Positions 853 through 29,300 of a stretch of 52,821 bases of DNA are shown piece by piece. This DNA is from a virus. A model generated the notes under the pieces. The model was given only the letters and a program-made list of their open reading frames with translations, was not told where the DNA came from and did no database searches. Within the stretch, counting starts at the first letter, position 1, and each line of letters starts with the position of its first letter. The stretch covers positions 1 to 52,821 of IMG/VR virus record IMGVR_UViG_3300010397_000052, one strand, 5' to 3'. The position numbers and the translations under genes were made by a program.

Positions 853-1528
853 TATTTTTTATCACACTTTGTTCTATCTTGGCACGCCTCCGACACTGCG
901 GCCGATGGCAGTCGATATCATTGCGGAGCAGGTAACCGAAATGGAGCGAACCGGACTTATCGCCGCGGCTGATGAGCTCTTTGTCGGAGTCAACGGAGGC
1001 GAGGAGAGCGAGGACATTGCAAAAATGCTCCTGCCTTCGAAAGCGAAGCTCTCTTTTCACGGGCTCAAGTCGCGAGCGGAAAACCTAACGATCGTCATGC
1101 TCGAGCGATGGGCCAAAGCCAACCCAAATTGGGCGATCCTTTATCTTCACGCCAAGGGCAGTTCCCATGAGCACGGGAGCCCTTACGGCCAAAACGTCTC
1201 GGGCCCCTGGCGGCGCGCTATGATGTTCGACTTGGTAACCAACTGGCGCGCCTGCGTCGCGGACCTTGAAGCGGGAGCGGAAATGGTCTGCTCACACTTC
1301 ATGCGCAATATGGCCGATGGCAGTCAACACATACCGGCCGGCAATTTCCTGTGGACTACTTCGAACTTTGTTCGCACTCTCCCGTCCATCTTCATGCGTG
1401 AACGGATCAAAGTCTCAGGTATCGATGCTCTCGAAAGCAGATTCGAGGCTGAGGTTTATTGGGGCAACGGTCCAAGGCTGCCGATGGTGAAGGAGTGGCG
1501 GCCCAATGGCGGAGGCGGCTGTCCGTAA
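842..1528 (+). CDS. Glycosyltransferase-like protein
   Basis: The 228-residue protein has a short N-terminal beta-strand (RISIFYHTL), an F-V-G-V-N-G-G turn near residue 48, and a W-x-I-L-Y-L-H-A-K-G-S-S-H segment near residue 98. LYLHxKG strings occur in glycosyltransferase-like proteins of surface polysaccharide loci, and the NGG turn is shared with the two upstream paralogues. The substrate is unknown. The start overlaps the end of the HNH gene and the stop TAA shares a base with the ATG of the radical SAM gene (TAATG), so it belongs to the same coupled cassette. I am fairly sure it is a gene; the enzymatic role is inferred. Confidence 0.7.
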   Translation: MRISIFYHTLFYLGTPPTLRPMAVDIIAEQVTEMERTGLIAAADELFVGVNGGEESEDIAKMLLPSKAKLSFHGLKSRAENLTIVMLERWAKANPNWAILYLHAKGSSHEHGSPYGQNVSGPWRRAMMFDLVTNWRACVADLEAGAEMVCSHFMRNMADGSQHIPAGNFLWTTSNFVRTLPSIFMRERIKVSGIDALESRFEAEVYWGNGPRLPMVKEWRPNGGGGCP

Positions 1529-2589
1529 TGAGTCCAGAGCTCGAGGCGGCTTACGCAGAGGCGGCTCTGCCGTTCATCGATGGCGCGATAACAAAGGAAA
1601 TTATCGGGCTTCGCTCCTGGCGCTACTTTCTCGAGGTAAATTCCGCGTGTAACCTCAAATGCCCCACTTGCACCAAGGGGAATAAAGCTGGGTACGAGCA
1701 TCAGACCGGGATCATGGAGCCGGAACTGATGGGCAAGATTATCGACAAGATCGCCAGCGAAAATCCCAAAGCGATCGTTTTTCTCTACGGCAATTCGGAG
1801 CCCTTTTTGCACCCTCGTTTGCCGGAGTGCATCGCAGCCGTCAAAGCTCGAGGACTGCGCTGCGAGCTCTCCACCAATCTCAACTACGTTCAGCGCCTGG
1901 ATGAGACTCTGGCCGCCAAGCCTGATTTCATGATCGTCTCGCTCTCCGGCTTCACGCAGGAGGTTTACGAGAAAGGGCACGCTGGCGGCGATATCGAAAA
2001 GGTTAAGGCGAACATGATTTTGCTGGGCGAGGCAAACGCCAGAGCGGCTCAGCGCGTGCAAATCTCCGTCAATTACCACATTTACAAAGACAATGTGGCG
2101 GATCTCGAGCTCATGAAGGCTTTTGCGGCTCAGTGCGGGATCGAGCTCTTTACAAGCACGGCCAGGGCAATCTCAATGGAAAATGCGATCCAGTATTGCC
2201 GGGAAAAGGACGCGGAGGCTACTCCGTTTGAGGTTCAGCCCCTCCGGCCGGATTGGAATCTTGCTTTGCCTCCTGTCTCCGCGCAGTGGCGGGACACAAT
2301 GGATCGGCTGAGGATCCCTCCGACGCAGGCGAGGGATATGTACGCGCAAATCCCGCTCCGCTCAGCTTGTCCGGTTGGAGCAGGAGGCATGTTTACGTTC
2401 ATCCGGCACGATGGTAAGACGTCGCTGTGCGCCTGCGTGGCAGACCGGCGCATCTCTCTCACGGATTATTTGGAAACGACTCCGGAGCAAATGATCGAGC
2501 AGCGCACAGGGCACGCCATTTGCCAGCAATGCACCAAGTACCGACTCAACCTTTACTTTCACATCGTAGATCGCCAGAAATGGGAATGA
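1528..2589 (+). CDS. Radical SAM enzyme with C-terminal cysteine cluster
   Basis: The 353-residue protein has the radical SAM motif CxxxCxxC at C41, C45 and C48 (CNLKCPTC), which binds the [4Fe-4S] cluster that cleaves S-adenosylmethionine. It follows a typical first strand (YFLEVNSAC) and precedes a GNSEPFLHP segment after the second strand. C281, C301, C303, C332 and C335 form a SPASM/twitch-like auxiliary cluster region. Such enzymes modify peptides, sugars or cofactors. ATG 1528 overlaps the preceding stop as TAATG and is preferred over 1459. It lies among glycosyltransferase-like and methyltransferase genes, which suggests a sugar- or glycan-modifying reaction, but a peptide substrate cannot be excluded. 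Confidence 0.88.
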   Translation: MSPELEAAYAEAALPFIDGAITKEIIGLRSWRYFLEVNSACNLKCPTCTKGNKAGYEHQTGIMEPELMGKIIDKIASENPKAIVFLYGNSEPFLHPRLPECIAAVKARGLRCELSTNLNYVQRLDETLAAKPDFMIVSLSGFTQEVYEKGHAGGDIEKVKANMILLGEANARAAQRVQISVNYHIYKDNVADLELMKAFAAQCGIELFTSTARAISMENAIQYCREKDAEATPFEVQPLRPDWNLALPPVSAQWRDTMDRLRIPPTQARDMYAQIPLRSACPVGAGGMFTFIRHDGKTSLCACVADRRISLTDYLETTPEQMIEQRTGHAICQQCTKYRLNLYFHIVDRQKWE

Positions 2590-3206
2590 TGAAAACCTTG
2601 GATGAGATCGCGATCAGGCACGGCACGGACAAAGCCACGCAGTTTACGCGCACTCATGCCCAACCCAAGGCTTACACGTTGCATTATGAGAAATTCTTCA
2701 CGCCGCTCCGGCACACTCCGGTAAAGCTGGTTGAGATTGGAGTTGGCGGAGGGGAATCGGTTCGCACTTGGCTGGATTACTTCGATGCCGCTTGGGTGAT
2801 CGGGATCGACAATGTTAGCGGGACTAACGAGTGGAACACTCCAAAGCAGTTCGGGGCAGGTATGGAGCAGTTCGATCGTTACGGGTTCATGGCCGCAGAC
2901 CAAACGGATCCGGTTTTTTGGGCGTGCTTCACGGCTGACGTTAAGCAAACCATCGATATCGCGATCGACGATGGCTCACATGAGCCAAGGGCGGTTCAAA
3001 TCTCTTTTGCCGGTTTGTGGCCACTGATCAAGCCGGGAGGGCTCTACTGTATTGAGGACTTGGGGTGCGGTTTCACAAGTCCTGGCTGTCAGACTCATTG
3101 GGAGTGGCTGGCGACCTACCTCGCGCCTCTGATGACCGGAGGGCTGATGGATCTCGATTCGATTTACGTTGCCCCTCAACTCGCAATAATCCGAAAGAAA
3201 GGCTGA
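2586..3206 (+). CDS. Class I SAM methyltransferase, macrocin O-methyltransferase-like
   Basis: The 206-residue protein begins LDEIAIRHGTDK, the conserved opening of the TylE/MycE group of sugar O-methyltransferases, followed by HYEKFFTPLR and SAM motif I (VEIGVGGG, residues 49-56). DDGSHEP and a later IEDL strand match the acidic metal and SAM region. These enzymes methylate hydroxyls of deoxysugars on macrolides and also occur in surface-polysaccharide loci. The gene overlaps the radical SAM gene by four bases (ATGATG at the junction; start 2586 or 2589). The long upstream extension in this frame is a shadow of that gene. The family is clear, but the acceptor is unknown. Confidence 0.85.
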   Translation: MMKTLDEIAIRHGTDKATQFTRTHAQPKAYTLHYEKFFTPLRHTPVKLVEIGVGGGESVRTWLDYFDAAWVIGIDNVSGTNEWNTPKQFGAGMEQFDRYGFMAADQTDPVFWACFTADVKQTIDIAIDDGSHEPRAVQISFAGLWPLIKPGGLYCIEDLGCGFTSPGCQTHWEWLATYLAPLMTGGLMDLDSIYVAPQLAIIRKKG

Positions 3207-3209
3207 ACC

Positions 3210-4496
3210 GTGTACACCATTCACAATCGCTGCCGTGCCTGCAACTTTGGCCCTCCTATTCTCCCTGGCGGAACAAAAGCCGGAGCCAACGCCGATCGCC
3301 TCCTGCCTGCTTTCAGCCTTGGGGTTCAGCCACTCGCTAACGATTTCTGCCAGGACGCAGAGGAGCGAGCCGGTTTTGCGCCGCTCGAGATTCTTCTCTG
3401 CCCTCAATGCGGTTTGGCGCAGTTGAGCGTAGTTGTCGACCCTGGGATCCTTTACGCCAAGGATTATCCCTACGTAACCAGCAAGAGTGACACCATGCGG
3501 CAACATTTTGAGCTCTTGTGGAATGACTGCAGCGCGCAAGCCTCCTGCAAAACCGTCCTCGAGATTGGCAGCAATGACGGCGATTTCTTGAATTACTGTC
3601 GCAGCCACGGCGCAGAAGCTGTGATCGGTATCGAGCCGGCATCAAATCTGGCGGCAGCGGCCGAAAAGCAGGGCATCCGGACGATCCGCGATTTCTTCAA
3701 CCCCGTCTCAGCCGCGATGGCGAGCCAAGCGATGCCCAAAGTGGGGATGATCTTTGCCCGTCACGTCTTTTGCCACGTACCAGACTGGCAAGCCTTCATG
3801 GCCAACTTGCAACTCCTGGCTGGGCCAGAGACGCTGATTTGTATCGAGGTGCCTTACGTGATGGATCAACTCAAGGCGATTAGTTTTGACCAGATTTATC
3901 ACGAGCACTGCAGCTATCTCTCCATCCGAGCGATCAAAGCCCTGCTCAACGGCGGCCCATTCTGCCTCAAGGATCTCAAGCACTACACCATTCACGGCGG
4001 CGCGATTCTGCTCATGATCCAGCGCCGGAGCCCTGAGATAAAGGCCAGCCAAACGGTCCTCGAGTACCTTGACGCGGAGAGCGCCACTCAAAAAAGCTGG
4101 CAGGAATTTGCGGAGAAAAGCTCCGACGCGATCGAGAAGCTCAAAGGCTTGATCAAACAACTGCGCAAAGAAGGAAAGCGCGTTGTGGGCTTTGGAGCTT
4201 CCGCCAAGAGCACCGTTTGGATTAACGCCATGGGGCTCTCCCGCGCTGATCTGTCCTGCGTCTACGATTGCACTCCTTCAAAGTGGTATCGGTACATTCC
4301 CGGCACGGATATCCCGATCGTCAACCAGGGCGGCTTTTACGTCGACGATCCGGAGTATGCCGTCATCTTCGCTTGGAATTTCGCGCAGGAAATAATGGAT
4401 AAGAACCGAAAATGGATGGAGGGCGGCGGCTCCTTCATTGTCCCCATCCCTGAGGCGAAAATCTATCGCGCTGAGGCTTGCTCCTGCAGCGTTTAG
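3210..4496 (+). CDS. Zinc-binding sugar C-methyltransferase family protein
   Basis: The 428-residue protein has the three-part architecture of sugar C-methyltransferases such as TylC3 and NovU. An N-terminal zinc-binding domain carries C8, C11, C64 and C67; a SAM domain has motif VLEIGSNDGDF (116-126); the C-terminal domain contains VVGFGASAKST (about 324-334). The region around YHEHCSY is typical of the family. The family normally adds a methyl group to C3 of an NDP-4-keto-deoxysugar. The start is GTG 3210, three bases after the previous stop. It is the last gene of the modification cassette before the portal. No sugar-nucleotide dehydratase or epimerase is present, so the substrate must come from the host. 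Confidence 0.9.
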   Translation: MYTIHNRCRACNFGPPILPGGTKAGANADRLLPAFSLGVQPLANDFCQDAEERAGFAPLEILLCPQCGLAQLSVVVDPGILYAKDYPYVTSKSDTMRQHFELLWNDCSAQASCKTVLEIGSNDGDFLNYCRSHGAEAVIGIEPASNLAAAAEKQGIRTIRDFFNPVSAAMASQAMPKVGMIFARHVFCHVPDWQAFMANLQLLAGPETLICIEVPYVMDQLKAISFDQIYHEHCSYLSIRAIKALLNGGPFCLKDLKHYTIHGGAILLMIQRRSPEIKASQTVLEYLDAESATQKSWQEFAEKSSDAIEKLKGLIKQLRKEGKRVVGFGASAKSTVWINAMGLSRADLSCVYDCTPSKWYRYIPGTDIPIVNQGGFYVDDPEYAVIFAWNFAQEIMDKNRKWMEGGGSFIVPIPEAKIYRAEACSCSV

Positions 4497-4503
4497 TCTT
4501 GCA

Positions 4504-4544
4504 GTGCTCACCGCAAGGGTTTATTGCCCACGGTGAATGAGCAC
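4504..4544 (+). promoter_or_regulatory. Hairpin holding the portal start codon in a bulge
   Basis: GTGCT (4504-4508) pairs with AGCAC (4540-4544), and CACCG (4509-4513) pairs with CGGTG (4531-4535). An inner GGG (4517-4519) can pair with CCC (4527-4529). The only interruption on the right arm is AATG (4536-4539), which contains the portal ATG at 4537. As RNA this would place the start codon in a bulge and could limit initiation. The pairing is directly visible; the regulatory role is inferred. Confidence 0.5.
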
Positions 4545-6891
4545 CGCGAAAGAAGTAACGGATCGTTGGGATAACGCCTCCCTCGTAAATCAGCAAGTTT
4601 GGGATTGGCGCTTAGCCGATCTGCCTCGCGGAGAAAATCGCACCATTTTGGATCGCCTTTACAACGGGGATCCGCCCTTCGATGAGGCGCTCGCGGAAGA
4701 GAATCAGGTAGAGATCAACCGCAATAACCTCGAGGGCCCTAACCTCCTGGGCAACGCTCGCCGGCAGTGGAACTCCGCAATGCTCAAGTCTGGTAATTTC
4801 TTCAATATCGCCGTTCACCGCGGAGCACGGAACATGCGGCGCGAGTACGGGCACACCATCACCAAGCACATCAATCGAGTACTTCGAAAGAGTATGCCTT
4901 ACAAAGAGCAGCGGCGGCAGACCGGCGCGGCCGTCATGCTCCATGGCATCGGGCCCACCCATTGGGACACTCGCCGCGGCATGGTCCCCGATGTAGTTCC
5001 GATCTCGAGCGTAATGGTGCCAAGTGAAACGCTGGTATCCGGCGCGAACATCGATCGCTTTGCCATTTTCCGAGAATACACCCCGGCTCAGCTTTACACC
5101 CTCACGCACGGTCCAAAAAAGGATCCTGGCTGGCAGATGGATACGGTTATGAGCCAATGGGATTACGTGCGCCAGATGACGCAGAAACAGCCAAACGCGA
5201 CGGCTTACCAGTACATGCCGGAGCGGATCGAGGAGCTCGCCAAGCAGGATTTGGGATTTTGGGGCTCTGATGCTGTGCCCACGATCGATTGCTGGGACTT
5301 TTACTTTCGCGGAGCCAAGGACACAGACGGTTGGTACCGGCGGATCATCCTTGATTGGGGAGTTACTCAGGAAAATTACAAGCAATACCCTGCAGGCGGG
5401 AAACCTCCGGAAAAGCCGGACAATAGCAGTTTCCTTTACACCTCCGGCGATCGGCGCTTTGCCAACTCGCTCAACGAGATCATCCACTTCAACTTTGGCG
5501 ACTGCTCCGCGGTTACTCCGTTTCGGTACCATTCAGTTCGCTCCCTGGGCTGGATGCTTTGGGGTGTGTGCGATCTCGAAAACCGGTTGCACTGCAAATT
5601 CAATGAGGCAATTTTTGAGCAACTCCTCTGGTTCTTCCGAGTCGCCGGCAATGCCGATATGACGCGCATCAAAAAGGCGCTGTTCAATCACATGGGCGTA
5701 ATCCCGGCCGGAGTGGCCATGGTCAAGAATGATGAGCGCTACAAGCCCGATGCCGCGTTGATCGAGATGGCTTTCAACCGCAATCAATCTGCAATGCAGC
5801 GCTTTTCCTCGAGCTTCACGCAGGACGGAGGCAAAAACGAAAAGGAGATGACGGCAACTGAAACCATGGCCAGGGTTAACACCGTCAATCAGCTTGTCTC
5901 AGGCATGATGCAACTGGCTTACGAATACGAGGAGGCTAAGGATTACGAGATTTGTCGGCGCGCCTGTATCCGCACGCTCCCCGATCCCATGGCCAAAGCT
6001 TTTCAGCGCGCCTGCCTCGAGGACGGAGTGCCGGAGGAGATTTTGGACGTCGATTGCTGGGAGCTCACTGAGGAGCGCACGCTTGGCTCTGGAAACAAGC
6101 AAATCGAAATGGCTCAGGTTCAGTTCCTGCAGCAACTTCGGCCGAAACTCGGGCCCGATGCGCAGCGCAAAGTTGACCACATTTCGATCGAGTCCGCTTT
6201 GGACGATGCCGCGATCGCTGAAGATCTGGCTCCGCTCGAGGGGCAAACCAAAGTCAGCAGTTCTATGCATGACGCGATGCTCTCTACTGAGCGGCTCATG
6301 CGGGGGCTCATATTTGTGCCCTCCCCTGACATGGTGTACGAAGATTATGTGAAAGTCTGGTTAGCGGACCTTACACAGATGGTTCAAGGGGCTGTGGAAT
6401 CCGGAGGGATGGCATCTCTGGCCGATATCATTGGCTGGCAGACCATGGATCGCACGATTGAGTCTTTCCTGCAGATCATGGACTCCGACGAAGAGCAGGC
6501 AGACAAGGTGCGCGGTTACCGGCAGCAACTCTCCGAGCAAATGAACGAGGTAAAAGCCTTTGTCCAGCGCCTGCAGCAACAGATGAAGGCGCAACAGACT
6601 AACGGAGGTAACGGCAACGGCGAGGCGCAAGCTGCAGTGGCGGCAGAGCAGGCTAAAACCATGGCTGAGATACAGGCAAACCAAGCCCTGGCGGCGCAGA
6701 AGCTCAAAAACGCTGAGGCGAGCCATGCGCAAAAGACGGCTCAAAGGCAGGTTCAGTTTGAGATGGATCAGCAGCGCGAAGATCGCAGGACTAACGCTGA
6801 GATCCGCCGAAAAGCCGATCAACACGCCCTCGATATCACTGCCGGCCGAATCAAAACGCTTGATCAGGCGACGGAAGAGGAGCAAGCATAA
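4537..6891 (+). CDS. Portal protein
   Basis: The 784-residue protein has the length and composition of the large portal proteins of podovirus-like phages, which form the dodecameric ring where DNA enters and leaves the head. The N-terminal half is rich in Trp, Asn and Arg (VWDWR, LDRLYNGDPPF). The middle has the long helical segments expected for the stem. The last 100 residues are a Gln/Ala/Glu-rich coiled coil. Position supports the call: terminase lies upstream across a cassette, and scaffold and capsid genes follow. No catalytic motif is expected. I did not recognise a close named homologue, so the call rests on size, order and overall pattern. Confidence 0.8.
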   Translation: MSTAKEVTDRWDNASLVNQQVWDWRLADLPRGENRTILDRLYNGDPPFDEALAEENQVEINRNNLEGPNLLGNARRQWNSAMLKSGNFFNIAVHRGARNMRREYGHTITKHINRVLRKSMPYKEQRRQTGAAVMLHGIGPTHWDTRRGMVPDVVPISSVMVPSETLVSGANIDRFAIFREYTPAQLYTLTHGPKKDPGWQMDTVMSQWDYVRQMTQKQPNATAYQYMPERIEELAKQDLGFWGSDAVPTIDCWDFYFRGAKDTDGWYRRIILDWGVTQENYKQYPAGGKPPEKPDNSSFLYTSGDRRFANSLNEIIHFNFGDCSAVTPFRYHSVRSLGWMLWGVCDLENRLHCKFNEAIFEQLLWFFRVAGNADMTRIKKALFNHMGVIPAGVAMVKNDERYKPDAALIEMAFNRNQSAMQRFSSSFTQDGGKNEKEMTATETMARVNTVNQLVSGMMQLAYEYEEAKDYEICRRACIRTLPDPMAKAFQRACLEDGVPEEILDVDCWELTEERTLGSGNKQIEMAQVQFLQQLRPKLGPDAQRKVDHISIESALDDAAIAEDLAPLEGQTKVSSSMHDAMLSTERLMRGLIFVPSPDMVYEDYVKVWLADLTQMVQGAVESGGMASLADIIGWQTMDRTIESFLQIMDSDEEQADKVRGYRQQLSEQMNEVKAFVQRLQQQMKAQQTNGGNGNGEAQAAVAAEQAKTMAEIQANQALAAQKLKNAEASHAQKTAQRQVQFEMDQQREDRRTNAEIRRKADQHALDITAGRIKTLDQATEEEQA

Positions 6892-9482: not shown

Positions 9483-11030
9483 ATGGCACTCAGTTGCAAA
9501 CAGTTCACGGATTACCTGAGCCGGAAGTCCGAACACCTTGACGATAATATCATCCTTTCGATGCACCCGATCGACACTTGGATCGGGCACGTTTCGATCG
9601 GCCGCTTTGCGGCAGAGGATGGCGTTGAACACACTTTCGATCGTTTCGAGAATGTTTTCCCTGATCTCCGCGGAGCCTGGGAGGACGTTTCGGCCGGCAG
9701 TTGCATTGGCCAGCCTTGCGACCCGTCGACCACAAAGATCGGCTTGGGCTTCACCCGAGACAGCTACAAGCTGCAGCGCAAGTCCTACGAAACTGATCTC
9801 TTCTGTTTCGACCAGATTCTTTCCGCCGATCGCGCCAAACAGCAGTTTGCCCACGTCATCAGGGTTAACCGGCGCGCCTCTTCGCTGATCACCTCGCACC
9901 GGTTCCGGACGGAGGCGATTCGCATCGCCAAATACAAATGGGCGACGGCCAACAATACGCTGGTTCCCATTACTGCGACCTGGGATAGCACCATGACCTT
10001 TTTGACGGTTTCAACTTTGCCAACCAGCAAGATCACCGCTCGCCACCTGCAACGGCGCGTCCAGCCTCAGATCCGCGAAGGCGCGCTCTCTGAGGACATC
10101 AATCGTTCCGTTCAACCCATGCTCGAGTTTGTAACCGATATGGATGAAGTCTGGAACATGGTTGAGGGCAACCCCGAGCTAACCGATCACTGGCGCTTCA
10201 CGGACTTTGCTGACGCTGAGAAGTACCACAAATACGGATGGGTTGGGAAGCTGGGCAACTATGGTTTGCGCGCTGATTGGACTTCGCTCCGGTTCAACGT
10301 GTATTCGCAGAATGCGGACGGCACTACGACCCTGCAGATCGTCTACCCGTACACCAATGTTTCGGCCACGGAAGGCATTAAAGAAGTTGTGAATAACGAC
10401 TACGATAACGCCTATATCCAAGTCGACTTCATTTGGCACCGCAAAGCGATGACGTCCATGGTGCAGGACACCACGTCGATCAATCCGGAGATGCCTTTCG
10501 CCATGCGCGACTTTGCCGGAAAGTGGCAATTCGTGATGGATAACCTTACCTGTGGCACGGACGTAAACGGCAACCCGATCGCCGTGAACAACGAGCGCCG
10601 CAACAAGGGCAAATTCATCGCTGATTGGCGCTTTGCCACTCAGGCGGAATATCCTGAGCTCGCAGAAGCATTTTTCCACCTGCGCGAGCCGGCTTGCGTT
10701 GTGGACGTGCCCACCTGTAGCAGCGGCTCATACCCTGCGCAGAGCTACTCGAGCGCAAATGCTACCTGCCCCTCGAGCTCTACGGTCCTCACCTTTACGC
10801 CAGTGGCCAGCGGCTCCGGCGACTATGATATTCCGCAGGATTCGATCCTGTGCAACGGGTTGAACATATTCAATCCGCGCATCTACGGCGTAAGCACCCT
10901 GGCGCTGCTCGTTGCCTCGCTAAACACCAATCTCTCAGCAATGGGAACTTGGGCTGTCGCCAGCGCGACTACGATCACCCTCACCGGGGCGGTTTGCACC
11001 TCCGTCAATATCCCCTGGACGGTTGACTAA
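9483..11030 (+). CDS. Major capsid protein candidate
   Basis: The 515-residue protein lies where the major capsid protein is expected, after portal, scaffold and a co-chaperonin. Its long A/T-rich leader, strong hairpin downstream and large globular composition without membrane segments fit an abundant shell protein. The central part (QVDFIWHRKAM to WQFVMDNL) is mixed alpha/beta as in HK97-fold subunits. The last 110 residues are Ser/Thr-rich and beta-like (SSTVLTFTPVASGSG) with several cysteines and could be an added surface domain. I see no N-terminal delta-domain cleavage site. A decoration or other head protein is the main alternative. Confidence 0.75.
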   Translation: MALSCKQFTDYLSRKSEHLDDNIILSMHPIDTWIGHVSIGRFAAEDGVEHTFDRFENVFPDLRGAWEDVSAGSCIGQPCDPSTTKIGLGFTRDSYKLQRKSYETDLFCFDQILSADRAKQQFAHVIRVNRRASSLITSHRFRTEAIRIAKYKWATANNTLVPITATWDSTMTFLTVSTLPTSKITARHLQRRVQPQIREGALSEDINRSVQPMLEFVTDMDEVWNMVEGNPELTDHWRFTDFADAEKYHKYGWVGKLGNYGLRADWTSLRFNVYSQNADGTTTLQIVYPYTNVSATEGIKEVVNNDYDNAYIQVDFIWHRKAMTSMVQDTTSINPEMPFAMRDFAGKWQFVMDNLTCGTDVNGNPIAVNNERRNKGKFIADWRFATQAEYPELAEAFFHLREPACVVDVPTCSSGSYPAQSYSSANATCPSSSTVLTFTPVASGSGDYDIPQDSILCNGLNIFNPRIYGVSTLALLVASLNTNLSAMGTWAVASATTITLTGAVCTSVNIPWTVD

Positions 11031-11153: not shown

Positions 11154-11492
11154 ATGAAAGACACAGAGACGATGGACGAAGGGATGGACTCGCTTTATGG
11201 CGACGAAAAACCGGCCGCTAAAAGCAGCACCCCCGAAACGATCGACGAAAAGGAGCGGGAGGAAAACGCCGATACGGATATTCTCAAAACTGCGGTCCTT
11301 CAAACGGGCCCTGATGACAAAGTTGAGCCAGGGGATACGCGCACGGTCAAGGTTCTGGAAGTCTACGGCGAGACTTGCAAAGTCATGTGCGCGCCCAAAG
11401 AAAAGGAAACCCCTGAGGAGGAGGCGAGCCCCAACGAAGAAATCGATTCTATGAGCGCCGCTCACGATGAAGCGGGAGGCGCGCAGTATTAG
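11154..11492 (+). CDS. Small acidic protein
   Basis: The 112-residue protein is strongly acidic (clusters DEKEREENADTD and EKETPEEEASPNEE) with a short central beta-like segment (TRTVKVLEVYGETCKVMC). I do not recognise a family. It follows two hairpins after the capsid gene and precedes the Cys-module protein. A head completion or decoration role is possible from position only. No membrane or signal segment is present. Confidence 0.65.
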   Translation: MKDTETMDEGMDSLYGDEKPAAKSSTPETIDEKEREENADTDILKTAVLQTGPDDKVEPGDTRTVKVLEVYGETCKVMCAPKEKETPEEEASPNEEIDSMSAAHDEAGGAQY

Positions 11493-11525: not shown

Positions 11526-11903
11526 ATGAGCTTAGCAAATTGTAACCTGAGCACACTGCAGACGGCCGCGAAGTGCTACGACTGTCTGAGCGCCACTGAA
11601 AAGCAGGCGCTAAAAGTGCGGTTCATGGCGGAGTTGTACAAAAAAGTTAGCGGCGTAGACCTGACAAACATCAATACCCTCAAGCGCACCGTTGCTTGCA
11701 TCGGGTGCGAGCCAGATTTCACCCTGGGCTCAATGGAGGTGGCGCTGTGGAAGAATGCGGCGGAAGTCGCCGGAGTTTCCATCCCGGCTACCATCCAGGC
11801 GCAGCGCGCCTTGATCTCCTGCGTCCCTTGCGGAGAGCAGAAATGGGCTCGAGCGGCAGAGGTTTATCTGCTCTGCCAACTCAGCCGGCGCACCATCAGC
11901 TAA
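11526..11903 (+). CDS. Cys-pair module protein (three modules)
   Basis: The 125-residue protein contains three CxxC pairs: CYDC (about residue 17), CIGC (about 59) and CVPC (about 100). Each is followed by a helix ending in a hydrophobic stretch such as EVYLLCQL. The same module recurs in the N-terminal third of the next gene (CFHCIP, CYQCIP, CLTC), so the two genes share a repeat family. CxxC pairs may bind zinc or form disulfides. The position in the virion block suggests a structural role. I know of no named function for this module. ATG 11526 lies after an A/T-rich leader (ACATAAAAT). Confidence 0.75.
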   Translation: MSLANCNLSTLQTAAKCYDCLSATEKQALKVRFMAELYKKVSGVDLTNINTLKRTVACIGCEPDFTLGSMEVALWKNAAEVAGVSIPATIQAQRALISCVPCGEQKWARAAEVYLLCQLSRRTIS

Positions 11904-11912
11904 GGTTAGCCC

Positions 11913-14417
11913 ATGGCTACCTGCTCGCCTCAGGCTTTGCCTCGAGAGTCGACGTGCTTTCACTGCATTCCCCCGCTTGAAAAGCACGTCCTCAAACTCT
12001 ATTTGCTGAACCTGCAGGCAGGCACATTCACGGCGCGGCAACTCTCCGTAGGGGCTACGCCTTTCCGGCCGATCTCAGGGCATCTCGCCCTGGCGGCCAA
12101 GGTTTACCTGTTGACTGTGATCAACGGGCTTTCCTTGTCCCCGAGCGCCCTCGAGGCGAGCGCCGCCTGTTACCAGTGCATCCCGAACAGCGCTCGCCTT
12201 GACGTCGAAACCTATCTCCTGGCCGTCAATGCTGGCGGCTCCCTCAATCCGGCGACACTGACCGGCCAGATCGGCCCTTACAAATCGCTGTTTCCGATTC
12301 GTGATCAAGTTGAGCTTTACCTGCTCAACATTTTGGCTGGCACTCTCTCAATCGCGGCGATCATGGCTGGCGCGAAATGCCTTACCTGCCTGAGCACCGG
12401 CCGCCTCGAGGAGATTTACATCAAGCTCCTGTGCATGGGCACTGGCGGAACTGGTTGCGTAGACGTTGCCGCCTCTCTGGTGCCTGTGATCACGGGTATT
12501 TATGACCCTGACTTGCATACGCTGATCGCTCTGAACATCGTTTTTCCTAAGGTGTGCTGCTCGCCAAGCGGATACCGGATCATCGCGCAAAACGGGCTCA
12601 CGCTGCAGACCGGCACAATTTCGGCCGCGCACGCAGGGGAAACCAATTACACGCTGCTCAATGTCGACGTGACTGGGATCCTGCTCCCTTACACTAGCCT
12701 GACCGTTAAGCAGGTTTGCTCCGGAGGGACACTCAGCGGCGGATCAAATAGCGTCGACTTTGACGAGCCTCTGGATCCTGTTGTGGTGGATTGGGCGGCG
12801 CGAGTAGTGATCAACGGCGGAGCCGCACCCTCCGTCAATAGCAAGTACGCATCCAACACCTTTATAGGCGCGCTGAGGACGGCCGGGATCTTCAGCAAGA
12901 TGAAAACGATCAACATGGTTGCTCCGGACAACCTGATCGCCGCAGAGACTCCGCTCATAGTTGGCCCTGGCCTTGATCCCTGGCCCGATGTTGGCGCATC
13001 AAATTTTGTCGCTGCGGATCTCTCCCTTTACGGGCTGGCTTGCGACGGCACCAAGGCGCTCAATACCGGAGTTGGCGGCACTCAATTGAGCCTCGCCAGC
13101 GCAGGACTGACAATCGTTGCCTCGATACTCGATCCTAATCCGACCCTCACGCTGCGGTACGATATGGGCTATCTGAATGCGGCCGCGCAAGAGTATATGT
13201 TTGTGGCGGCAGATCAGAACTCGGGCGGCGTAGTTGGGCACGCAGGCGGCTCGAGTTTCAGCAGCGGTTTGATCACCAACACCGGAGCGGCTGACTCTTT
13301 TGCGGGTTACGTCTCTTACAATCGCACCTCAGTCGTGAGGGCGGATCTGTATTGGGCAAATAATGACGTTGCCCACTCCTCGATCGGGAACAACACCAAC
13401 AATCAGACTCTCGGGCTCAGCGCAGCGCCGATTTATTTCGGAGCCGTGCGCGACTCAGCCGGAGGGGCAATCCCGTACTACAGCAAGAACACACTCTCTT
13501 TTGCCGCGGTTCATGACGGGTTGACGGCCGCGGAGTCACTGGCCTTTTTCAATGCGGTTAATGCTCTCCGAACAAGTTTCGGCGGAGGCTGGGGGGACAT
13601 TGGCGATTCTTACGTTGGCAGTTGGTCAAACCGGATCGTAGCGGCCGGAGGCGTGACGCCAGGGGCAGCCAGCAAGAGCGCCGTTCACACCTTGGCCACG
13701 GACCTTTGGTCTGCAGGTATCATCAGAAAGATTTTGCACGCTATCCCGTTGGTTTCTGACAGCCTGATCGCGGCCATTACCCCGATCTTTTACAACGGGG
13801 TAGGAAATGCCTCCTGGGCCAATACCAATTTCATCCTCGCAGATCTCACAGCCAACGGGCTCCTGGGAGCAGCTACCAAATTTCTCAATACTGGCTTTAT
13901 CCCCAATGCTTCCGGCGCTGGCTTAACCGATGGCAGCGCCGGCTTGATCGTTTACACGCACACAAACAATGCAGTTGGGGTGCAGCATGAGATCGGAGTT
14001 TATTGGGCTGCCTTCCAATCCTTCTTTGGGTTGCTCACGGATTACAATGCCGGCAACACAGAGGGCGCAGCCTGGATGTACAGCGGAAACGACAATATCA
14101 GCACGGTCACCCCTGCCAGCTTGACCGGTTATTACGCTTTCCAGCGCACGACAACCTCACGCGCTGACATTTACTTTGCGCGATCGAACGTGGCGCACTC
14201 CTCGATCGCCAACTCAGTTGGGCTGATCGGAGGCACGGCTGCAGACAAAGCCCTTTTCGCTTTTGGTGCCAATAACAACGGCGGAGGCGTTACCGGCGAA
14301 TCACTCAAGCGCCTCTCGTTCATCGCGATCACCACGGGGCTTTCATCAGCAGAATCAGCTTTGGCTTACACCGCGATTCAAGCTTTCCGGACGGCGCTGG
14401 GCGGAGGAGCAGTCTGA
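11913..14417 (+). CDS. Large modular tail or fibre protein
   Basis: The 834-residue protein has three parts. Residues 1-190 hold five repeat units, each with a YLL helix; three keep a CxxC pair (CFHC, CYQC, CLTC) and two have lost the cysteines. A short beta-rich linker follows. From about residue 290 to 834 there are two tandem copies of a 270-residue beta-rich domain. Both start with an aromatic W followed by a V-x-x-G-G segment, contain LIAA-x-TP, an AHSSI string and an end near LS-x-AES-x-A-x-x-x-A-[VI]-x-A-[LF]-RT. The copy ends resemble lectin-like domains of tail proteins. It is probably a host-contact or decoration protein. ATG 11913 follows the previous stop by nine bases. Confidence 0.75.
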   Translation: MATCSPQALPRESTCFHCIPPLEKHVLKLYLLNLQAGTFTARQLSVGATPFRPISGHLALAAKVYLLTVINGLSLSPSALEASAACYQCIPNSARLDVETYLLAVNAGGSLNPATLTGQIGPYKSLFPIRDQVELYLLNILAGTLSIAAIMAGAKCLTCLSTGRLEEIYIKLLCMGTGGTGCVDVAASLVPVITGIYDPDLHTLIALNIVFPKVCCSPSGYRIIAQNGLTLQTGTISAAHAGETNYTLLNVDVTGILLPYTSLTVKQVCSGGTLSGGSNSVDFDEPLDPVVVDWAARVVINGGAAPSVNSKYASNTFIGALRTAGIFSKMKTINMVAPDNLIAAETPLIVGPGLDPWPDVGASNFVAADLSLYGLACDGTKALNTGVGGTQLSLASAGLTIVASILDPNPTLTLRYDMGYLNAAAQEYMFVAADQNSGGVVGHAGGSSFSSGLITNTGAADSFAGYVSYNRTSVVRADLYWANNDVAHSSIGNNTNNQTLGLSAAPIYFGAVRDSAGGAIPYYSKNTLSFAAVHDGLTAAESLAFFNAVNALRTSFGGGWGDIGDSYVGSWSNRIVAAGGVTPGAASKSAVHTLATDLWSAGIIRKILHAIPLVSDSLIAAITPIFYNGVGNASWANTNFILADLTANGLLGAATKFLNTGFIPNASGAGLTDGSAGLIVYTHTNNAVGVQHEIGVYWAAFQSFFGLLTDYNAGNTEGAAWMYSGNDNISTVTPASLTGYYAFQRTTTSRADIYFARSNVAHSSIANSVGLIGGTAADKALFAFGANNNGGGVTGESLKRLSFIAITTGLSSAESALAYTAIQAFRTALGGGAV

Positions 14418-14419
14418 TT

Positions 14420-14869
14420 TCACTTATCGTGAATCTTATGCCATTCCTCACCATAAAATCTTGGAGGCGGACTACGCATTCCCTTTCGTCCCTGATCGGC
14501 ATTGTTTTCGATTACAGTACCAAGCCAGAGATGGGCAGGATTTATGCACGCCGCGCAATCCCGCGACGGTCGACAATCGTGAAGGACGCATTTGCCTTCT
14601 GGAATCTCCCCGAAATGAATAAGCCAACTGGCGCGATGCGCTTTGATCATCCCCGGAAATCTAAAGCCCCTCGAGATCTGGCCGTAGCCTTTTCCATTTT
14701 TAGAGCCAGTCCAGAGCCAGCAATGATCGGTTTTGTTAACAAATTTCCAGAACCTCTCTACGAAGTTTTCAGAAAGCCCGTGCGCCGCCAAAATCGGATT
14801 GGGATGAGGAAAGCCTTTGCCTCGAATGCTCTTGCGCCTGAAATGAGTGCGTTTAGGATGGTTTTGCAT
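14420..14869 (-). CDS. HNH homing endonuclease (minus strand)
   Basis: The 149-residue protein matches the HNH_3-type family. It shows CWLWTG with KGYGQI, AHRASWLIHFGEIPEG, a C-x-L-H-D-C site, CINPAHLWLGT and ENNADQGRKG. The histidine-metal site is complete, so the enzyme may be active. It lies in opposite orientation inside a long run of plus-strand structural genes and ends three bases past the fibre stop. This is typical of a free-standing homing endonuclease that recently moved in. It would nick or cleave related phage genomes lacking it. No intron or intein is visible around it. Confidence 0.88.
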   Translation of the reverse strand: MQNHPKRTHFRRKSIRGKGFPHPNPILAAHGLSENFVERFWKFVNKTDHCWLWTGSKNGKGYGQISRGFRFPGMIKAHRASWLIHFGEIPEGKCVLHDCRPSRDCAACINPAHLWLGTVIENNADQGRKGMRSPPPRFYGEEWHKIHDK

Positions 14870-22474: not shown

Positions 22475-23302
22475 ATGGACGAAGAAAACGAGCAGGATTT
22501 ACCCGATTACTCTCCGGAGGAGGGTCAAGATGAACGAGAGCCGGCGATGTTGCCCACGCCTGCTCCCGCCCCCGCGGCTGCTCAACTAAGCGCGCCTGTC
22601 ATAGCGCGAGCGGCCGCCCCTTCTCCGATTGCCCCGGGCGGCGCTGGCACTGCTGTGTACTCCCCCGAGCAGCAGGCTAGCGCCGCTTTCTGGCGCAAGA
22701 TGAATTATGAGTTGCAGGGGCAACCCCTGGCAGAGGCTGAGCAAGCGCTTTCGGCCGCGCTCAAGTTTCAGGCGATCCGCGGATATCAAAAGGATCTGGA
22801 AAACGGCAAGAGCCCCGGCGAGGCGCTCTCGCGCTGGGCCCCAATGATGTTCACGGCTCCAAAGTCCTCAAACCTGGGCAACGCGGCATCGATGGTGCGC
22901 GCTACCCGTGCGCCTGCGCCCATGGTCCGGACGGCCGGAGGGCAGATTTTTCAGATTCCGCCAGGAGGTGGCGCAGCAACGGCCCTGACTCCGGCTCCGG
23001 TTCGCCCTCCGCGCACGGATCCTTTCGCCCTCGCAGAGTTTGAGCTCAAGCTTAAGCAGATTGAGAAGCTGCAAGCGGATCTCGATGTAGAACCGGCCGG
23101 CAAAGGCCGCCAAGATATTTTGAAGCGGATCGACGTAGCTCAGCGCGAGGCAGCGGCTCTCCGCCCAAGCCCTGCAGCTACGGCTCCAACTGCTCCGGCC
23201 GCTCCTGCAGGCGGAGGGAATGAAGTGTTACGGTTGACAAAGAGCGGCCGAAAGGCTGTCTTTGACTCCGCAACAAAGAAATTCCTCCGTTATGCCCAAT
23301 GA
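22475..23302 (+). CDS. Internal virion protein candidate, Ala/Pro-rich
   Basis: The 275-residue protein opens with an acidic stretch (DEENEQDLPDYSPEE), followed by an Ala/Pro linker, a compact helical domain (ASAAFWRKMNYELQ to ALSRWAPMMF), another Pro-rich linker and a coiled-coil segment (FALAEFELKLKQIEKLQADL). It closes with a basic LRLTKSGRKAVFD end. No catalytic residues are apparent. Its stop lies inside the start of the giant gene (11-base overlap), so the two are probably made together. Confidence 0.6.
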   Translation: MDEENEQDLPDYSPEEGQDEREPAMLPTPAPAPAAAQLSAPVIARAAAPSPIAPGGAGTAVYSPEQQASAAFWRKMNYELQGQPLAEAEQALSAALKFQAIRGYQKDLENGKSPGEALSRWAPMMFTAPKSSNLGNAASMVRATRAPAPMVRTAGGQIFQIPPGGGAATALTPAPVRPPRTDPFALAEFELKLKQIEKLQADLDVEPAGKGRQDILKRIDVAQREAAALRPSPAATAPTAPAAPAGGGNEVLRLTKSGRKAVFDSATKKFLRYAQ

Positions 23303-26300
23303 TACGCCTCCGACCTGGGAAGAAACTCAAGAGCTTGCCGATACTGCGCCGCCCTCCTGGGAGGATACCTCTGAGTACGTAGAGCCCCCCGCTCCGCTCC
23401 GGCCGCAACGGGTTCGCTCTGCCATAAACCAGACGATTCAAGCGGTTTATCGGCCGCTCGATCTGCTCACAAATCCGGCCGTAGTCGCCGGTTCACAGAT
23501 GGGCCAGGAGCGCGCCAAGCGAGCCAGGGAGGCGCAGATGGGTGTAGTTGCTCCCGGCTCTTTCTTCCCCGTCCCTCAGCCGCTCGCAGAGCCCACTCCG
23601 GAGGACAAAGCTGCCGGAATGGATTTGGTGCGATCGATTACTTCCGTGCCTGGGCGAGTACTGGCAGCCGGAGCTCGCACCGTGCGCGACGTGCTTAGCC
23701 CTTCAACTTACCTGCCGGAGGATATGAAAGCGCCTCCGCCTTTTGTGATTAACACTCGAGGCGAGCAGCCGGAGCTCCGCCAGATGACGCGAGCGGAAGA
23801 GGCAGCGCGGGATCCCCTGCAGGGCCCTCGAGCGCTCATCCCGGTTCGAGGCACGCAGCTTGAGCCGGAGGGGAGCGAAGGCGCACAACTGCTCTCAGGA
23901 CTGAGCACGCCGGACAATATCGGGATCATCGCGGCCGGAGGTGCAAGCAAGATTGCCGGCATGGCGCTGCTCTTCAGCATGGCCCCCGGCATCTATGAGG
24001 ACGTGAAGCGGATCGCCTCGAGTGATGTTTCCCTCGAGCAGAAACGCCAATCGATCAACAATTTGCTGATCCCTCTTGTCCTGGGAGCGAAAGGCGCTTA
24101 CGAGCGGCCGATCCCTGAGGCTCCTCAGGTTTCGGGCCCTCCGGCATTGGGTTCGATGCTGCAGATACCGGAGGGAGCGCGGCCGCCAGTGGCGAGAGCG
24201 GCCGAACTGGTAGGGCCGCCTGTGCCCGGGCGTGCTAAGTTCTTGCGGCCGGAGGTTCCTGGCACGGCCGCGGAGCCGTATGAGACGGCACTTGCGACCA
24301 TTCGAAAGGCCAATGCCAGGACTCGAAAGCAGATTCAAGCGCTATTCCCTGAGCGGCGCTTGAAAAACGAGGAGGCTGCAGATCTCCGTGATGCTGCTTG
24401 GGGTGCACAACCTCAGCCAGAGCCTCCGGCTGCTCCTCCCAAATGGGAGCAAACAGAGCCCGTCACGCGTACGCCAGAAGATCGCGCAGCGATGGGGCAC
24501 GCGCAGGAAATTGACGCGGCCGCCGAAAGGCAAGCCAGCCCGACTCAAGAGCCTCCGCTCCCTGAGGAGCCAACCGGTACAACTGTGCCCAACCCTCCGG
24601 CTCCGCCCACGCCTGCCGGAGAGGGCGCTGTAAAAAGTGTGCCCACGCCTCCGGCTGACGTCGATTACACCGATCTCGAGCAGGCAAACAAACTCAGCGG
24701 CCAGGAACTGGTTGATCTGGTTCGCAGCAAAGGCTCCGGAATAACGGAGGCATCCTATGAGTTGGGCGCAAAGCTCACGCCTGAAACCAGGGCCAAAGCG
24801 CGCCAGTACGAAGAGGCTGCCAATGCCGAAACAATGGCTGTGCTCCAAGAGGCTCAGAAACTGGCACCTCGCAGCCTCGAGCGGCTCAAAGCCTCTGAGG
24901 GCGCTTTCGCAATGCAGCAAAAGAAGCAGCTTTTCAATGAGGCTGGCCGGTTCTATGACGCAATACAGGACGTCAAGAACGGTAAGGATCTCGCGCAGGC
25001 TGCAGTTGAGCATGGAGTAAAGGAAACGGACCTGCGCAGGGTGGCAGAAGCGGCTCCGGCTGAGGCGGCCGCGACGCTCGCGCCCAAGCCAGGAATGACG
25101 CGGCTCTATCACGGTGAAGGAGCCGCGGAGGGCGCTGGCGCTGGCGGAGGTTGGTTTACGGAAAATCCGGAGTACGCGGCGCAGTTCGGAAAAGTTACTT
25201 TTGTCGACGTGCCCAAAGAGGTTGCCGATGCGGCGCGCCAAGCGGCTCGAAATACCGGTACTGGAGGCCCTCATTTCATCCTCCCTGATGAATACGTAAA
25301 GCAGGCTCAGCCAATGGCGACGCAGCCAGGGCCCAAGACGTTTGACGTTACTCCGGAAGAGCCGCCCAAGCCCAACGCTTACAAGGTGGAATTTTTGCAC
25401 AGCAGCGGGGAATGGTTACCAGAGATCACTCCCTCAACTCTCGCAGAGGCGCGCAAAGAAGCAGCGCGGCGCTTTAAAAGTGGCGTACAGATTTGGCGCA
25501 TCCGGCCATATTACGGAGAAATTTCCGAGAGCTCCGGCCCGATGGGCTCAGAGCGAGTCATTAAAAGGGCGATCGAAAACCCTCCAGAGGACACTAGCGA
25601 ACAACTCGCAGCACAAAAGTCAGACTTTCAAGAGCAGCTTAAAAAGACTGAGGGCATTCTAGCCAAAGCCAAGCGGGAGGGTTACTCAGGTGAAGCCATC
25701 AAGCATTGGGAGGATCACGCCGCCAAACTCCGTGAGCTCATCGGGGAGGAGACGGCTCCGGTTGTGGAAACTCCGGCCGCTCCGGCTGGCCCTGATCCGC
25801 TCGATAGGGTTACGCTCGCCATGCTGCCACTCAAGCAGTGGATGAAGGTAACCAAAACTGATCAGCTTCCAACGGGTTACGAGTTTACCATGATGGCAAA
25901 GCGCCTGGGAGTGAAGCGCGATCGCAAAGCTGTCCTCGAGGCACTCCACAACGAGAAACGCCTGCGCGAAATCTTCAAGCCTTTCGAGCAACCCAAAGCG
26001 GCCGCTCCGGCTGAAGAGCTCCCTAAGCATCAAACCGTACGGGATGAGCAGCCAGAGAAACAGACTCAGGGCAACTATGTGGCGGAATGGCTGCAAAAAT
26101 ATCCCGAGGGTACCAAGCTGCCCAATGGTTTGATCTCAACTGAGCAATTCTGGAAAGAGGCTCACCATGACACGATCGAAAACATTCTGAGAGGCAGGCT
26201 CACCGGGATAAAGGCGAGCGCTGTTTCGCCGCAGGCTCTGCAGTCCTACCCTGATCTTTTGGCTCTCGCGAAAAAGAAAGGCGTGTCCATTCCTGCTCCC

Positions 26301-29300
26301 TCAACTGAGGTGCCAAAAATGGACAAGGCGGAGTTTGAGGCTGCCAGGGATGCCTATAGCGCGGATAAGTTTCCGACGATCCGAAAGCCATTTGCGAAAA
26401 ACGGGAAGCTTTACACGGTTGGATCGGTTTCTGGCCCTGCCGGTAAAGGTGTTATCGAGGCTCACGAATTGACGGAAGTTGCTCCGGAAACGCCCATAAC
26501 AAAGAAAGACTTTTCGACTGGAAAGCGAGGCTATGAGGGCGAGGTAGTCTCGTACAAAGGCAAGAAATACAAGCTGGGCCCAATGGAAACTTTCGAGGAG
26601 GCTCCGGCTGAAGCTTCCACCAAAGTTGTAGGACCGGAAACGAAACCGGCTGAGCCTGAGGCGACTCCGGTGCAAGCGGCCGAAAAAGAGCTTTACGACG
26701 CTGATCAGTTCACCTCGCAGGCTGCCTCCGCCGCGGAGAAAGCAACTGTTGCCTGGGCAACTCATGTTGAGGACGTCGTAAAACCTCTCAAAGAGAAGAT
26801 CCGCCAGATACAGGCGGAAGTCTCGCGCATGGAGTATGACGCGAACCGCACCAAAATAACCGGCAAGAATAAGCTCACCAAAAAGGCATTCCTCGAGCTT
26901 CACGGAGTTGCTTCCATCGATGAGGCTCAGGCTCTCTACAAAAAGAAGAATGCCGATTGGGCAGATCTCGAGAAGCAACTCGAGGAGGCAGAGGCGAAAC
27001 GCAAAGAGCTCGAGGCTGCCAAAGAGCGCCGCTCTAAAGAATGGTCTGCAGCGGCAACCCGAGCAGGCGAACTGCGCCGCAAGGTCTATCCGGACGTGAA
27101 GCAAGGCGACGTTGGCGGCCAGCCTCTCGGCCCTGAGGCGATCGGCCCTGGCTCCGCAGCGCGTCTCGAGTTTGAGGGCCCTGAGTTTGAGCCTCCGGAT
27201 CCTGGCGCTATTGGGCTCAGTGCTGGTTCCCCGTTCTACAACCGGCTCAAGGCTAAGTATCAGCACTTTTACCAGGGCATCAGCCAGCTATTCAAGCGCA
27301 GCGCTGACAAACAAATCCTGATGCAACTGGCCAATGCGGCTGACAATCTGCCGCGCCTCGCTGGGCATCGCGCCGGCCAAGGTATCAGGGAGCGCACCTC
27401 CGCCCCTGATCGCAGCGCCCTTACCTTTGTCATGCAGGCGCTCAAAATGTCCGGAGAGGGGCTCTCTGCCGAATCTGCGGAGCGCCTGGGAGAGCTCGAG
27501 TTTGCCGGGGATCCTGGCGCTTACCTGCGCACCAAGGCAACCGATATGGAAACCCTGGCGCAGCAGTTTCTCCATGAGGGCAAAAAGCTCAATGCGGAGG
27601 CTGCCATTGCGGCCGCTAAGGCGATGCGCTTTGCGATTCGCAACTTTGCGAGGCTCCGGCCGCTCGCGGATACCGTGCGCGCTCAGTTCGATAAGCAGTT
27701 TGAGCGTGAGGGAAGAGCCGGAATCTCAACCGACTACGAGAATTGGCACGTACCGCAGCGGCATGACTTGGATCTGATGACGTCCTCAGACCGGCCGATC
27801 GTCCTGGGCCATTCCCGCGCCGCCGGTACCGCAACCGGTTTCAAGAAAGCCAAGGTGTATGAGGATTACGCGACGGCGATCGAGAATGGGTTTGTGCCTC
27901 GCTCCCTCGATATCGCGGATCTGCTCGAGCACAGGGTTAACCAGGGAGAGCGCTTGGTGCAGCGTAAGGCGCTCTTTGACCGGCTCCGAGCCATGACAGA
28001 CCCTGTGGACGGTAAAAGCCTCGCGCAGCCTATCCCGCGGCGTAGCATACCCCGGCCGGATGGAACTGTTGACGTGCAAGAGCACATTCCCCTTGGGTAT
28101 CAGCCTTTCGAAGTGATTCCCGGGTACCGGATGGCTATCCATGAGGGCTACGGCCGGCTGATGCGCGCCTTAACAGGCACCTCTCAGCTTGCAGAATCGG
28201 CCGCCGTTGGCGCGCTGCAGGACATTGCCGGCATTGAAAAGCATATTTCCTTGGCTTTAGACACCTTTCACGCCTCGAGGACCATGCAGGCGGAGCTCTC
28301 GCTCACCGGCAAACTCTCCGTTGGCGCTCGCCAGCGCCTGGGCAGAGCCCTTGTCGAATACAATCTTGGCGACCTGCAGGCGGCCGTAAGTAACGGTTCC
28401 ATAACGCAGGAAATGGCCGATTACATCAAAACTCCCCGCCCAATCGAGGTTGGCGGCCGTACGATAAGGTTATCGCCTCACGCCTTGGTCCAACTTGGTG
28501 CCAGGGAGGGCTTGAATCTGGCGCGCTTTAACGATGCCCTTTACCGGGATTGGATCCGCGAGTTTCCCGTGAGCGGCAAGGTGAATAAATGGGTGTTCGA
28601 CAAGCTGACTCGCTCCGCGATCACTCACGGCTTTCTTGCTGAGTTTGAGAGGGTTGCGAAGCAAAACCCGCAACTCAATGCGACGCAGGTAGCGCGCAAG
28701 GTGGCGAGTGACGTCAATGTGCTCTTTGGCAACCTGCAGAAAGAGAGCATTTTCCGCAATCCATCGGTTAAATCCATCCTGCAAGTCCTATTCCTGGCTC
28801 CGAATTGGGTTGAGGCGCTGGTACGCCGGGAGGGGAGGGCCCTGAAACAGGTTGCGGAAATCCCCGTGCAAATCGCAAAGGGGCAACCTGTCCATTTTGG
28901 CACCGCCGCCAAGGGCATCGGCTCAGGACTGGCCGCTTACTTCGTTGGCACTCAGTTGCTGAACCTGATCACCCGGGGACACCTCACTTTCAGCAACGAG
29001 GAGAAAGGCCACAAGTTGGATGCCTGGATCCCCGACGTCACGGGCAAAACCAAGGGCTATTTCATCTCGCCGCTCTCAGTATTCGGAGAGGTAACCCATG
29101 ATATCCTTAGGTACGCCAGGGAGAAACCGGACCTATGGGCGGCCGTCAACCAGATCGGCTCAAACAAAATGGGCAACCTGGGCAGGCTCCTCGAGGTGAT
29201 GATCTCCGGCCGGGATCCGGCCAATAACGAAAAGCTCATCGGTACTGGCAGGCGCGCAATCACGGCCGCAACCCAACTCGTACCGGTACCGATCTCCCTC

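Follow-up and report, generated by a model that had tools for sequence, protein, structure and literature searches.

Hoc-like capsid display proteins are anchored to the capsid and display Ig domains. In the Rad50 zinc hook, a CxxC sits at the turn between two helices, and the CHCH/twin-CX9C and alpha-hairpinin folds are helical hairpins with an outer and an inner cysteine pair. In the capsid of the Agrobacterium phage Milano, a minor capsid protein (mCP) and the linkers LP1 and LP2 are tied by disulfides (PMC10491603). LP2 is small and looks like the strand at the N-terminus of LP1, whose Ig domain stands out from the shell; the particle is weakened when the disulfides are reduced (PMC10491603).

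The window analyzed here is a whole IMG/VR virus record of 52,821 bp, and two of its genes share a cysteine-pair repeat. As in Milano, a small protein has an anchor in common with the N-terminus of a larger, putative display protein, and there is more than one such gene. Cysteine-based covalent crosslinks on the capsid, which we propose here, would be a further likeness. The Milano linkers bind as short extended strands, whereas the proteins here carry tandem repeats that are predicted to be helical hairpins. A tblastn search with the repeat gave no homologous linker protein in 50,697 phage records, a collection that may not include Milano itself. The best reading is that the repeat proteins may function like LP1 and LP2, which would be a likeness of working and not of membership.

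The other systems are similar in part. As in the Rad50 hook, a CxxC at a hairpin turn could clip two hairpins, but here there is no long coiled coil, the repeats are in tandem, the cysteine spacing varies and the end cysteines are coupled. A single unit bracketed by end cysteines has Cys1, 2, 3 and 4 in the same order as the CHCH and alpha-hairpinin folds. However, its spacing is C-x10-C-x2-C-x14-C and not that of CX9C or CX3C pairs, and the outer pair brackets one to five hairpins. CHCH/twin-CX9C membership was rejected because this spacing does not provide the two CX9C motifs in antiparallel helices that define that family. Like Hoc-like proteins, the repeat proteins are proposed to be capsid-anchored and to display Ig-like domains, but the anchor is an N-terminal array of cysteine hairpins and each phage has several paralogues.

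Two repeat genes in the window

The putative major capsid protein (MCP) is a 515-aa protein encoded on the plus strand (9483..11030), and the putative portal gene lies at 4537-6891. Since neither protein has a significant match in PHROGs or the PDB, or a relative among 50,697 cultured-phage records, both names were given from size, gene order and conservation. Identification by homology was attempted and not obtained, and a profile comparison of the putative MCP with the T7 and HK97 capsid proteins gave nothing. A conserved acidic protein of 112 aa (11154..11492, plus strand) occupies the slot between the putative MCP and the first repeat gene. Ahead of the structural genes, a radical SAM protein, a methyltransferase and a C-methyltransferase (PF08484, E 1.2e-37) are encoded consecutively at 1459-4496, a trio that looks like a sugar-modification cassette. 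A 2,177-aa protein (23262-29795) is without any cysteine and had no significant family match.

The initial annotation had described a repeated Cys-pair module in two genes, and this was borne out, with three units in a small protein and five at the N-terminus of a large one, all on the plus strand. The small protein (125 aa; 11526..11903), defined by its ORF, alignment and HMM, consists of units only. Its 8 Cys make up 6.4% of the residues, and dN/dS against its orthologues is 0.04-0.09. Unit 1 (11541..11657; from alignment and sequence) has an opening Cys6 and the apex pair CYDC (Cys17, Cys20). Unit 2 (11658..11777; from alignment) has the apex pair CIGC; it is divergent and weak in the HMM, and its orthologues retain the Cys pair. 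Unit 3 (11778..11900; from alignment and HMM) has the apex pair CVPC and a closing Cys117 after YLL, and its spacing matches that of the third unit of the proteins from loci L058 and L060.

The large protein (834 aa; 11913..14417) consists of a five-unit array (residues 1-180), a linker and two copies of a C-terminal domain of ~260 residues, which were recognized by reading the sequence; this C-terminus has no Pfam match. The HMM detected unit 4 (11922..12026), with an opening Cys4 and the apex pair CFHC, unit 6 (12135..12242), with CYQC, and unit 8 (12345..12452), with CLTC and a closing Cys174 after LL. In units 5 (12027..12134) and 7 (12243..12344), both apex cysteines are lost (PFRP and PYKS, respectively). 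Thus, all six CxxC motifs listed in the initial annotation are present and its two Cys-less units are real, but the array ends at ~12452 and not at 12480. The helix said to end in YLL does so exactly in five of the eight units, and the other three deviate. Directly past this gene is an HNH-like ORF on the minus strand (14420-14869); a similar ORF was found at a different location in L054 (11308-11820), suggesting mobile homing endonucleases.

All eight units fall into one register, C1-x-x-C4 ... Y16-L17-L18, with a period of ~36 residues (~35-40 aa). Compared with shuffled sequences, unit pairs scored as high as z = 13.5, and the small protein aligned with the large one at E 3e-5. An HMM built from the units of other viruses only was run against the 1,035 six-frame ORFs of the window, and it matched exactly these two genes (E 1.2e-19 for the large array and 1.6e-5 for the small protein). 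Units 2, 5 and 7 are weak singly (<5 bits with this HMM), but they are in register and supported by orthologues. The arrays are under purifying selection, with dN/dS of 0.04-0.26. The units align with one another and recur independently in other genomes, as a tandem repeat family does.

The initial annotation knew of no name for the module, and our searches agree. We counted a domain as named if it scored above the curated cut-off or at E <= 1e-3. No significant match to Pfam, PHROG or NCBIfam was found for the window proteins and four distant members. The best sub-threshold matches, PF14599 (E 0.006; 16.9 bits against a cut-off of 27) and phrog_22954 (E 0.24), were rejected as chance. A profile search of the PDB (profile A3) gave 0 matches at E <= 5, and Foldseek found no neighbor at E <= 1e-3 for a two-unit model of moderate confidence. 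There was no tblastn match to the repeat in the 50,697 cultured-phage records. One pattern scan of contigs from bacterial genomes gave four matches, each of which was due to chance on reading. No paper describing the repeat was found in the literature available outside subscription. The repeat is absent from current family libraries.

Gene order and exchangeable C-termini in related viruses

Distant members of the repeat were first exposed with a degenerate DNA pattern. Every virus record examined contained units, which mostly occupied two to four genes in a row. Three more scans of viral sequences with patterns added few new members, as one was too strict and two returned mostly chance matches. 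Because of this, and to remove selection bias, loci were then gathered by the putative MCP alone. This sample consists of 76 loci, selected only by a homologue of the putative MCP that is 31-100% identical. Many of these contigs (L069-L144) are ~52-57 kb long and have their gene order in common. Together with the lack of any relative of the putative MCP and portal among the cultured-phage records, they apparently represent a large uncultured phage group.

An iterated unit profile detected unit genes in 71 of the 76 MCP-chosen loci (161 ORFs, ~290 units); among the 12,495 ORFs at the 76 loci, no unit ORF lies on the minus strand. In 70 of these 71 loci, the distance from the MCP gene to the start of the first unit gene downstream is 32-1,423 bp, mostly 244-500 bp. 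One of the five unit-negative loci is cut by a contig end. At L094, L105, L108 and L119, the MCP homologue is present and the profile found no unit gene, which may reflect loss, divergence or relocation. L135 contains the sole case of a unit-like ORF upstream of the MCP gene, at a distance of ~5 kb (2222-2605). An acidic ORF of ~100 residues occupies the slot between the MCP and the unit genes in 69 loci. It is unnamed and has a consensus-like KxGDxxxxxVxxVxxDxxxVxYA core with acidic tails. The putative MCP itself has six near-invariant Cys (window residues 74, 79, 108, 405, 412 and 429) across 75 homologues down to 31% identity.

Small unit-only proteins, mostly of one to three units, adjoin proteins with one to five units before an unrelated C-terminus, and the two kinds of gene are adjacent in most loci. 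Among 40 unit-fused proteins, the C-terminal domains recognized by Pfam were LRR_5, Laminin_G_3, fn3, YadA_head and FlgD_ig. Close relatives keep the array (65-80% identity), while the remainder has diverged or been replaced; L006 has 36% identity in its C-terminal part (415 codons). Keeping the array while the remainder changes fits an anchor with exchangeable cargo.

Pairing of the cysteines and predicted fold

The consensus of ~300 units is CDPQTLLAAAKCFACLPPGQLLAVKLYLLAQI. Cysteines are concentrated at the apex, where 214 units have at least two, 15 have one and 17 have none; across the non-apex positions inside units, 3 of 4,487 residues are Cys. The apex spacing is CxxC in 167 of 246 units, CxxxC in 30 and CxC in 12, and CC also occurs. 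Two further positions lie at the ends of an array. An opening Cys was found in 72/134 first units compared to 5/127 other units, and a closing Cys in 73/134 last units compared to 7/127 others.

The opening and closing cysteines of an array are gained and lost together. Both were present in 67 arrays and neither in 56, with only one in 11 (67/5/6/56; Fisher 1e-24), and the coupling also holds separately within one-, two- and three-unit proteins. If u is a unit and parentheses are the end cysteines, the bracketed arrays are (u) in 24 cases, (uu) in 24, (uuu) in 9, (uuuu) in 2 and (uuuuu) in 1, and the split forms are (u)(u) in 2, (u)(uu) in 1 and (uu)(u) in 1. A further 56 arrays are unbracketed, and about 13 of the 134 violate the bracket rule. 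When end cysteines were permuted within each virus, the coupling remained significant (p = 0.002). Sister pairs were compared at a Cys-masked similarity of >=0.3: the closing Cys differed in 18/18 pairs in which the opening Cys differed and in 2/46 pairs in which the opening Cys was unchanged. With the similarity threshold relaxed to 0.2, these values were 30/35 and 3/58. Shared ancestry therefore fails to explain the coupling. An association between the cysteines of the putative MCP and the end-Cys state tracks two clades and was discarded as evidence.

The total number of Cys is even in 116 of the 134 arrays. Even counts and coupled end cysteines match what paired cysteines predict, while the 15 units with a single apex Cys run counter to strict pairing. 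The end staple is not essential, since ~42% of arrays are without both end cysteines.

A two-unit member was modeled with AlphaFold2 (pLDDT 70, pTM 0.48) as four helices that form helix-loop-helix twice. This model is adequate for secondary structure and inadequate for Cys distances, and the full-length model of the 834-aa protein (pLDDT 29) is unusable. The units are predicted, with modest confidence, to be helical hairpins.

A proposed linker or decoration layer and its alternatives

The repeat family, its linkage and its cysteine pairing rules are solid. For their function, we propose that the ~36-residue module is a helix-loop-helix hairpin with a Cys pair, usually CxxC, at or near the turn, and that one to five of these hairpins follow one another in a rigid array of helices. 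Each hairpin would be stapled locally by its apex pair, most likely as a disulfide. The second pair, made of the Cys that opens the first unit and the Cys that closes the last, would staple the ends of the array, either within a chain or between neighboring chains. Since an even number of helices puts both array ends on the same side, an opening-closing bond can close a single hairpin or a bundle or join successive subunits. The two kinds of pair together would give stapled rigid rods. Small array-only proteins could then be linkers or cement, while the larger proteins would use the array as an N-terminal anchor to display exchangeable C-terminal domains of the LRR, laminin-G/ConA, Ig/fn3 and YadA-head types. 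In this uncultured lineage of tailed phages, the set most likely builds a covalently hardened layer of decoration or linker proteins on capsid or neck. We are led to this reading by the gene order, by the C-termini that can be exchanged and by the six near-invariant Cys of the putative MCP. We give an even chance to the whole of it, in which the disulfide chemistry, the virion location, the identity of the MCP and the display role are all inferred. Because the cytoplasm in which phage proteins fold is reducing, the disulfides could form only at a late stage or once the cell has lysed.

That the end cysteines join chains is a doubtful extension, in which the last hairpin of one subunit is stacked on the first one of the following subunit and a disulfide takes the place of the absent peptide bond. 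Whatever their length, repeat proteins would in this way polymerize around the capsid as a covalent ring or mesh, and display proteins would be inserted by the same rule. If true, this would be a modular chainmail built from one repeat.

The initial annotation suggested an assembly or zinc-binding module in the virion. The genomic position is indeed typical of virion genes, but zinc binding was not established, and disulfides fit at least as well given that apex cysteines are lost only in pairs, that their spacing varies, that the units have almost no Cys elsewhere, that Cys counts are even and that the end cysteines are coupled. Apex cysteines may still be zinc ligands, with hairpin apices of different chains or distant units around one Zn that, as in the Rad50 hook, clips the small protein to the large one, and we hold this to be unlikely but worth keeping in view. 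It would work in a reducing cytoplasm, it suits the CxxC near the turn of the predicted hairpin in 167 of 246 units and the weak zinc-ribbon match of the small protein to PF14599, and each of the two window proteins has three Cys-bearing units. A zinc ribbon or hook calls for two CxxC (four thiols) that can come together within a chain or dimer at conserved spacing, and each unit here has one pair. However, the apex spacing ranges from CC and CxC to CxxxC, the small and large proteins of other viruses differ in how many apex pairs they have, and the coupled end cysteines are left unexplained. Furthermore, units with and without Cys take turns along the large window protein, so its neighboring units cannot share a zinc, which excludes zinc sites between adjacent units of that chain.

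The large protein had also been called a fibre to which the small one is perhaps linked, and our data established neither the fibre nor a binding of the two proteins. As tail fibres or spikes, the large unit-fused proteins would attach to the tail through the array, and the small proteins would connect the fibres. Tail fibres do usually combine a constant N-terminus with adhesin-like C-termini that vary. The genes are, however, directly behind the putative MCP gene in 70/71 loci and ahead of later structural genes such as g16560, which favors the capsid or neck, and unit-only paralogues are as regular in the cluster as the fused ones. We therefore consider fibres rather unlikely. More improbable still is that these proteins stay with the cell and not the virion, perhaps in the periplasm, on the surface or as assembly chaperones. 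Cys pairs suit an oxidizing compartment. Nevertheless, linkage to the structural genes is strict, the protein starts (e.g. MATCSPQAL and MAIDCDPNAL) have no hydrophobic signal peptide as judged by eye, and domain types such as those fused at the C-termini are common on virion surfaces.

Returning to the proposed stapled decoration layer, we find repeat genes behind the putative capsid gene in 70/76 related uncultured phages, which probably represents a new way of stapling and decorating a shell. No cultured relative was found for the phage lineage that has this repeat as a hallmark module, and the matched opening and closing cysteines of the repeat are a code, readable from sequence, that marks where covalent staples are expected. 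If confirmed, it would be a repeat-based way to harden a virion and swap its surface domains. It would also provide a handle to search metagenomes for this lineage and a possible modular scaffold for particle display.
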